In this document: piece after piece, positions 50,284 to 53,219 of the stretch
Layout: each line of letters begins with the position of its first letter
How positions within the stretch are numbered: the first letter of the stretch is position 1
Assembly (NCBI RefSeq): GCF_025506335.1
Contig: NZ_JANZYO010000005.1
Span: forward strand, 62,001 to 126,000
Direction of reading: 5' to 3'
Length of the DNA stretch: 64,000 nucleotides
DNA from: Mumia quercus
Lineage (GTDB): Bacteria > Actinomycetota > Actinomycetes > Propionibacteriales > Nocardioidaceae
Made by a program: the position numbers and the translations under genes
The notes under the pieces: model-generated
What the model was told of the DNA's origin: nothing
Database searches by the model: none
The model's input: the letters and a program-made list of their open reading frames with translations, nothing else

Positions 50284-50294
50284 GAGGATCTGCC

Positions 50295-50579
50295 ATGGCT
50301 GAGCGCAAGAGTCGCTTCAAGGTCGCGTCGGCGTTCGACATCAGGACGATCATCGGTGCCCTCCTGGGTATCTACGGCGTGATCCTGACGTTCCTCGGCC
50401 TCTTCAACGCCTCCGACGCCGAGCTCGAGAAGGCCGACGGCTTCAACGTGAACCTCGTGAACGGGCTGATCCTCCTCGGCGTCGCGGCGGTCTTCATCGC
50501 CTGGGCCGTCCTCAAGCCGCTCGTGGTCGAGGACGTTCCGCCCGAGGCGCTGGACGACCGCAAGGCCGGCCCCGAGTAA
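50295..50579 (+). CDS. Small two-helix membrane protein next to the symporter
   Basis: 94 aa from ATG 50295 with GAGAGGA upstream. Two hydrophobic segments (about 18-38, IIGALLGIYGVILTFLGLF, and 55-75, LILLGVAAVFIAWAVL) with charged ends. No enzymatic motif. It is cotranscribed with the sodium:solute symporter, and its size and topology fit a transporter accessory or stabilising subunit; this is inference. Confidence 0.8.
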   Translation: MAERKSRFKVASAFDIRTIIGALLGIYGVILTFLGLFNASDAELEKADGFNVNLVNGLILLGVAAVFIAWAVLKPLVVEDVPPEALDDRKAGPE

Positions 50580-50612
50580 CGCCTGGACGACGCCGCCGGC
50601 ACCCGCGCTAGC

Positions 50613-50654
50613 ATGGACTCCATGTACGGCGAACTCCTTGTCGAGCCGCGCTGA
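50613..50654 (+). CDS. Candidate leuS leader peptide
   Basis: ATG-initiated 13-codon frame encoding MDSMYGELLVEPR, with a second ATG at 50622. It contains consecutive Leu codons CTC CTT (50634-50639); CTT is rare in this GC-rich genome. TAGCAT (50609-50614) 7 nt before ATG 50622 could be a -10 box, making the shorter form MYGELLVEPR leaderless. Followed at once by two perfect hairpins and then leuS. Confidence 0.5.
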   Translation: MDSMYGELLVEPR

Positions 50655-50674
50655 CGACCACCCGGTCAGCGCGG
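50646..50674 (+). promoter_or_regulatory. First hairpin of the leuS leader
   Basis: CCGCGCTGAC (50646-50655) pairs perfectly with GTCAGCGCGG (50665-50674) around a 9-nt loop. The left arm overlaps the leader peptide's last codons and stop, so ribosome position would control whether it forms. Confidence 0.6.
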
Positions 50675-50697
50675 CAGCCCCTCTGCGTGAGGGGCTG
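50675..50697 (+). terminator. Attenuator-type terminator upstream of leuS
   Basis: CAGCCCCTC (50675-50683) and GAGGGGCTG (50689-50697) form a perfect 9-bp stem with loop TGCGT, followed by TTCTGTGT. It lies 45 nt before the leuS start, where a terminator can only act as an attenuator. Confidence 0.6.
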
Positions 50698-50741
50698 TTC
50701 TGTGTACGGGGCCGTACGAGAGATTTTCGGAGGAGACCCAG

Positions 50742-53219
<2,478 letters not shown>

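Follow-up and report, generated by a model that had tools for sequence, protein, structure and literature searches.

Leader peptides upstream of leuS and related genes

In the trp and leu attenuators of E. coli, termination depends on whether the ribosome stalls at control codons in the leader peptide, as we propose here for leuS; these leaders differ from the locus described below in having both a Shine-Dalgarno site and an evident 2:3 antiterminator helix. In Actinobacteria, Seliverstov et al. (2005) predicted classical leuS attenuators in Streptomyces avermitilis and S. coelicolor (PMC1262725). According to the account given there, T-boxes in Actinobacteria were seen only before ileS, which makes doubtful the suggestion of an earlier note on this DNA that an attenuator of a tRNA synthetase gene is unusual because actinobacteria prefer T-boxes. 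In S. lividans TK24, RNA-seq identified the leader LeuL2 (MRAVRLLLSEPR) before leuS, with a hairpin and a run of uridines after it; LeuL2 is leaderless, and transcription of this leaderless leader was mapped (PMC8079986). Experimental support for attenuation of a related actinobacterial gene comes from ilvB1 of M. tuberculosis, for which a 26-nt ribosome footprint was used (PMC13236596). Results from S. coelicolor count against the explanation favored here: mutation of regulatory codons in the ilvB leader was reportedly without effect, and the effect for leuA did not fit classical attenuation (Craster 1999, as cited in PMC1262725). A search on leuS attenuators and on Nocardioides leader peptides, mostly in literature outside subscription journals, returned no title on a leuS leader beyond Streptomyces.

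The leader element before leuS

The window, that is, the whole stretch of 64,000 nucleotides that was analysed, contains an element at 50609-50705 composed of a TAGCAT -10 box, an ATG, the frame MYGELLVEPR*, and two hairpins, one of 11 bp and a terminator-like one of 9 bp. It ends 36 nt before the start of leuS. The features are as follows:

50609-50614, forward strand: -10-like box TAGCAT (TAnnnT), from sequence
50622-50654, forward strand: leader ORF MYGELLVEPR*, its TGA stop within the 5' arm of hairpin 1, from sequence
50634-50639, forward strand: control codons CTC CTT (Leu-Leu), CTT being the near-invariant rare codon of the family
50645-50655, forward strand: hairpin 1, 5' arm GCCGCGCTGAC, from 5 nt past the last Leu codon, inverted repeat
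50665-50675, forward strand: hairpin 1, 3' arm GTCAGCGCGGC, inverted repeat and covariation
50675-50683, forward strand: terminator hairpin, 5' arm CAGCCCCTC, inverted repeat and covariation
50689-50697, forward strand: terminator hairpin, 3' arm GAGGGGCTG, inverted repeat and covariation
50698-50706, forward strand: degenerate, moderately U-rich tail TTCTGTGTA, 5 T of 9
50729-50735, forward strand: Shine-Dalgarno-like GGAGGAG of leuS, from sequence
50742-53219, forward strand: leuS, leucyl-tRNA synthetase, GTG start (TIGR00396, 966.9 bits; cut-off 548.4)

The leader reads ATG TAC GGC GAA CTC CTT GTC GAG CCG CGC TGA, with two Leu among its 10 residues. Since the ATG at 50622-50624 begins 7 nt past the TAGCAT box, the transcript is probably leaderless, and this spacing is within the range described for leaderless genes of S. 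lividans (PMC8079986). The earlier note had recognized a possibly leaderless frame with tandem Leu codons, one of them rare, before leuS, and both the sequence and its conservation in the family bear this out. It had allowed 10 to 13 codons; the 10-codon frame, which has the leaderless spacing, is the likely one because the ATG of the 13-codon version (50613) overlaps the -10 box. Its first hairpin is indeed perfect and has 11 bp rather than 10; the left arm, which contains the TGA, overlaps the last codons of the peptide as described, and the perfect 9-bp terminator lies just before leuS, with C50675 common to both helices. For the 81-nt leader the folding energy is -46.2 kcal/mol (z -4.5; 0/200 dinucleotide shuffles as good), and its minimum-energy fold contains both hairpins. 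Because the fold is better than shuffles and the element is conserved, the leader is more than chance: the element is real, and we infer that it is functional. No Rfam family reaches its gathering score in the window or in eight related loci; below that score the matches look like chance, and none of the nine found in the leader is to a T-box.

Directly upstream of the leader, in the same direction, are a sodium/solute symporter gene (TIGR00813; 48568-50283) and a small membrane-protein-like frame (50284-50579). A similar small upstream frame was seen by eye in loci L007 and L011-L013.

As described in PMC1262725, the Streptomyces leuS attenuators resemble the window in having a Leu-codon leader peptide and a poly-U terminator immediately upstream of leuS. 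An antiterminator hairpin is marked there, whereas none was found in the window's family, and the two Streptomyces of that study compare with 44 of 115 genera of the class here. LeuL2 is likewise a leaderless leader before leuS, followed by a hairpin and uridines, and its peptide shares the LLxEPR ending of the window peptide, but it has three Leu codons where the window has two (PMC8079986). M. tuberculosis ilvB1 (PMC13236596) and the Corynebacterium ilvB-II motif (PMC10272879) share the combination of a branched-chain leader frame and a Rho-independent terminator in Actinobacteria; they differ in gene and codons, and an explicit antiterminator is drawn for both. Seventeen of 200 leaders collected here encode exactly the LeuL2 peptide, and one covariance model matches these 17 and the window. 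By its sequence, the window element is thus very probably a leuS attenuator as predicted in Streptomyces in 2005, a known kind. What the present analysis adds is the breadth of the family, the near-invariant rare codon, and the missing antiterminator.

Distribution and association with leuS

LeuS is present in 58/58 genomes searched, and 30 loci of relatives were returned. The element occurs upstream of leuS in 29 of these: 26 were recognized by a pattern requiring TAnnnT and a CTC/CTT-ending control codon, L009 and L025 by a covariance model, and the last is L033, whose element encodes MRATLLLA. The sole exception, L014, has no leader match by pattern or model. Peptides of the relatives include MRKSLLLGQPH, MRVNLLLS, MPVALLLSEPR, and MRTALLLVAPR. 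The model was built from 22 leaders of the 26 pattern-positive loci (L010, L011, L017, and L026 were left out). At E ≤ 1e-9 it matches 155/293 genomes of the order (15/37 genera) and 107/296 genomes of the class (44/115 genera sampled), and at E ≤ 0.01, a looser cut that admits other leaders, 29/396 genomes across the phylum; in these genome tallies leuS downstream is confirmed for part of the matches.

Seventy-seven of 80 named loci were searched, three having too little upstream sequence, and 29 match the model, from Nocardioides, Marmoricola, Microlunatus, Actinomadura, Thermoactinospora, Nonomuraea, Arthrobacter, Pseudarthrobacter, and some MAGs. The 48 named loci without a model match include Microbacterium loci, Planktophila, Kocuria, Glutamicibacter, and Tessaracoccus. 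One locus (L106), on a contig titled Stenotrophomonas maltophilia that is perhaps a contaminant, has a leuS 59% identical to that of the window and falls among the Microbacterium matches.

LeuS is encoded downstream in 156/158 fetched loci. These comprise 58/58 loci (L116-L173, window included) of the best 30 matches per list for order and class (tblastn), L150 and L152 containing only the leuS start before the contig end, and 98 of 100 further matches picked by hand, non-randomly, from the match lists (at least 38 bits). The two exceptions are L239, where the contig ends, and L287, where a leuA-like gene follows. Five leuS leaders (L282-L285 and L286) are from genomes labelled as another class. 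In seven genomes two leuS-like genes are near each other; each copy has its own leader in five (G042, G044, G047, G055, and G057; E ≤ 1e-9), and only one leader was detected at this threshold in G049 and G052. L029 (4122-4240) is a case of paired leuS-like genes each with its own leader. In all, 213 leaders were gathered, 200 of them distinct; L287 and L033 are not among the 200, and L239 was kept although its contig ends before leuS. Hairpin-based counts are over 199 because L025 has no parsable hairpin 1.

Conservation of the frame, the rare codon and the hairpins

The TAnnnT box stands at the model start in 198/200 distinct leaders, a conservation that is partly by construction given the pattern used to choose the training leaders. 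The start codon (ATG in 144, GTG in 55, and CTG in 1 of the 200) lies 6 or 7 nt past the box in 199/200. When start and hairpin were located by geometry alone, which failed for one leader, the frame from the start to the GCCG of hairpin 1 was constant in 198/199, with the number of codons between them varying from 6 to 9. The longest Leu run has two to four codons in 195/200 leaders and one in 5. CTT occurs within the Leu run of 198/200 leaders and is its last codon in 190 (137/147 distinct peptide/codon strings), and this preference for CTT over CTC is not a product of the training pattern. In 195 leaders, the penultimate codon of the run is CTC 121 times and CTT and CTG 37 times each. Among 1,898 Leu codons in 29 leuS bodies (from 29 of the 30 loci, L033 being omitted; all belong to the window's order), CTT occurs 9 times, CTC 325 times, and CTG 1,500 times. 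Both CUC and CUU are read by tRNA-Leu(GAG).

Hairpin 1 begins 5 nt past the last Leu codon in 135/199 leaders and 2-4 nt past it in 64; the 5-nt offset is found in 45/75 short leaders, which have an early stop codon, and in 90/124 long ones. The alignment proposed in the earlier note, for a conserved ELLVEPR peptide with Leu codons, thus gave a divided answer: the peptide is not conserved, but the family does keep a run of Leu codons that ends in CTT and stands at a nearly fixed distance from hairpin 1. In the window's genus, MYGELLVEPR is encoded by three members, and MYGEHLIEPR, VYDLHLVEPR, and VRALMLLLDVPR by one each. MYGEHLIEPR and VYDLHLVEPR (L008 and L009) have a single-Leu run in which CTT is kept, and the T tract is poor in 5/6 members. 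The window's genus is therefore a reduced version and the weakest case of the family, in which regulation may be weaker.

The two helices have 97.7% of cells paired and double changes in 14/17 pairs (98 distinct rows), with 0/500 shuffles as good and slid versions 45-54% paired; the alignment, of 98 diverse sources out of 199, was fitted to the model, and both lean towards two helices. Hairpin 1 and the terminator are 0-2 nt apart in 169/199 leaders and overlap by 1-2 nt in 27. Six to eight T follow within 9 nt of the terminator in 161/199 leaders, compared with 5 of 9 in the window. An intrinsic terminator, consisting of a conserved covarying hairpin and a T tract that is weak in the window, thus lies between the frame and the gene. 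Lack of conservation of the leader peptide and hairpins had been named beforehand as evidence against attenuation; the frame and both hairpins are conserved.

Proposed mechanism and alternatives

These comparisons support the promoter and start geometry, the frame, the rare control codon, both hairpins, and the link to leuS; translation of the window leader, its response to leucine, and the terminating state are what we infer from them. With a probability of about 0.83, the leader is a leucine-responsive, ribosome-mediated transcription attenuator of leuS. The ribosome-mediated attenuation advanced in the earlier note is in keeping with the conserved frame, Leu run, -10/start spacing, and two hairpins, and with the published LeuL2 leader. 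Transcription would start at or beside the leader ATG, and a 70S ribosome would translate the 10-codon leaderless frame. With ample Leu-tRNA, the ribosome would reach the stop codon and leave, both hairpins would form, and RNA polymerase would terminate before leuS. When charged Leu-tRNA is short, particularly for CUC/CUU, the ribosome would stall on CTC CTT, covering much of arm 1 of hairpin 1, and termination would fall. A 26-nt footprint placed with the ribosome at the last Leu codon covers 5-10 arm-1 bases in 199/199 leaders (7 in 119), and in this model stalling can break hairpin 1.

In the textbook arrangement, a competing helix would form at this point. The antiterminator suggested in the earlier note (50666-50672 with 50685-50690) can be drawn in the window, but neither it nor a variant (50669-50674 with 50683-50688) is kept in congeners, in which the terminator loop TGCGT becomes TGCTC, TGCAC, or TGTAC, and across the family such pairings are equalled by swapped or shuffled loops. 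Pairing of arm 2 with its own terminator 5' arm and loop averages -4.26 kcal/mol (140 distinct combinations), compared with -4.68 for swapped loops, where 200/200 permutations are at least as strong as the own pairing, and -4.52 for shuffled loops, where 190/200 are. If anything, the real pairings are weaker than the controls; that of the window, -6.9 kcal/mol, is on the strong side of the family mean. In a covariation scan, which would miss a helix made up of invariant positions, arm 2 is linked to neither the 5' arm nor the loop of the terminator by any of the 45 highest-scoring pairs. The seven highest pairs are within the two known helices, and some others are register neighbours; pair 165-208 lengthens the terminator, and pair 81-112 (74% paired, 14 double changes) adjoins the loop side of hairpin 1. 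When the RNA is masked as far as 10, 12, and 15 nt beyond the last Leu codon, the probability of the terminator stays at 0.5 or more in 197, 196, and 196 of 199 leaders, respectively, the leaders below 0.5 being L017 under all three masks, L228 under the first, and L122 and L150 under the other two. In the window, with 13 nt masked past the CTT, pairing between arm 2 and the terminator loop is possible until the 3' arm has been transcribed, and from then on the terminator wins. A competing antiterminator helix is therefore not supported in the family by the swaps and shuffles, covariation, or masked folding.

A long-range helix joining the leader start (GTACGGC, 50624-50630) to the sequence that follows the terminator (GCCGTAC, 50711-50717) was also considered. 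It is strong in 6/6 members of the genus (ranks 2-7 of 55 in a first test), L009 and L010 having other letters at these positions, and in a swap table the own pairing is best for L010, L012, and L038 and not for L009. In a stricter shuffle over 198 leaders it has a mean z of 0.03, with 9 below -2, and it was rejected as a general feature. L038 and L151 are strong single cases of such pairing.

With no competing antiterminator helix found, candidates for the link from stalling to lost termination are an antiterminator that is weak and acts kinetically, a dual-hairpin terminator dependent on hairpin 1, or a hairpin 1 that hinders the terminator. The last of these is a variant within the same attenuator, so that its odds overlap with those of the main reading, and we consider it unlikely. 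Hairpin 1 would then be a starvation-formed structure: a ribosome at the stop codon would cover arm 1 and leave only the terminator to form, and a stall at the first Leu codons would leave arm 1 mostly uncovered, so that hairpin 1 could form beside the terminator and hinder it. The 26-nt footprint of a ribosome at the stop codon does cover the whole of arm 1 in 199/199 leaders (75 short and 124 long), and hairpin 1 abuts or slightly overlaps the terminator in nearly all of them, as would suit such hindrance. At the last Leu codon, the conserved CTT, however, the footprint already covers at least 7 arm-1 bases in 178/199, which means that stalling at this codon would disrupt hairpin 1 as well. 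Moreover, the two helices are not mutually exclusive by base pairing, given that the minimum-energy fold holds both, and we know of no adjacent hairpin that has been shown to block a terminator.

Control of translation instead of termination is improbable. In such a scheme CUCCUU, which resembles an anti-Shine-Dalgarno sequence, would sequester the leuS ribosome site until a stalled ribosome freed it, a role suggested for the base stem in the LEU element of leuA, which has a pseudoknot and a run of Leu codons paired with a downstream Shine-Dalgarno box (PMC1262725). CTCCTT in the window can pair with the GGAGGAG before leuS, and the degenerate T tract of the window's genus would also be compatible with this scheme. 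But the codon before CTT is not kept in the family, and of 195 leaders the 37 with CTG and the 37 with CTT at this place lack the motif; the conserved terminator and T run would stay unexplained, and cimA leaders have the same layout with ATT. Least probable is a plain terminator between the upstream genes and leuS with an accidental small frame, since, although terminators occur between genes and the long upstream frames run in the same direction, the constant frame, the -10/start spacing, and CTT in nearly every leader make such an accident very unlikely.

Related leaders before other branched-chain genes

Besides leuS, weak matches to the model point to leaders of similar design before other genes. 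Twenty such matches (30.8-41.5 bits) were fetched, with 11 cimA-like genes, 7 ilvB, 1 ilvA-like gene, and 1 leuS downstream; three cimA representatives score above the TIGR00977 cut-off and one ilvB representative above that of TIGR00118. ATT is present in 11/11 cimA leaders, as the last Ile codon in 7 and within ATT ATC in 4, and accounts for 2/173 Ile codons in the bodies of the cimA-like genes. Six of the 7 ilvB leaders are readable, and the last codon of the control run is GTA, CTT, or GTT in each; A/T-ending codons make up 26/509 CTN/GTN codons in six ilvB genes. The genome of the window itself carries a leaderless-type Ile leader, MLRVTCLVISRRV, containing CTC GTC ATT, before a cimA-like gene (L294, G000:C6:278091-278201, minus strand; 23.3 bits). 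One literature search on attenuation of citramalate synthase found no report of a cimA leader; its only match was, by title, a paper on a methanogen.

Two single cases may be added. A VHEMAIT* leader with the rare ATT precedes a threonine ammonia-lyase-like gene that is below profile cut-offs (L187, G744:C1:1220440), and a leader of the same design, MSQNLLLT*, precedes the leuA-like gene of L287 (G109:C182), from a genome assigned by its label to a different class of the phylum.

Tentatively, these leaders may belong to one family of leaderless branched-chain attenuators, before leuS, cimA, ilvB, and an ilvA-like gene, and before leuA in one genome of another class. Its members would share a -10 box, a start codon about 6-7 nt on, about 7-15 codons with a near-invariant rare codon (CUU for Leu, AUU for Ile), and a hairpin 1 that begins 2-5 nt later and abuts the terminator. 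They would sense the charging of isoacceptors that read U-ending codons, acting by ribosome cover of hairpin 1 alone with no base-paired antiterminator.

Implications

The leuS leader offers a testable and conserved case in which a leaderless leader peptide would place an essential actinobacterial tRNA synthetase under amino-acid control, and it singles out one rare codon as the likely sensor. Should hairpin 1 work with no antiterminator, a variant of the textbook two-structure model would be required. Through the cimA leaders, control by isoleucine would extend to the citramalate pathway.
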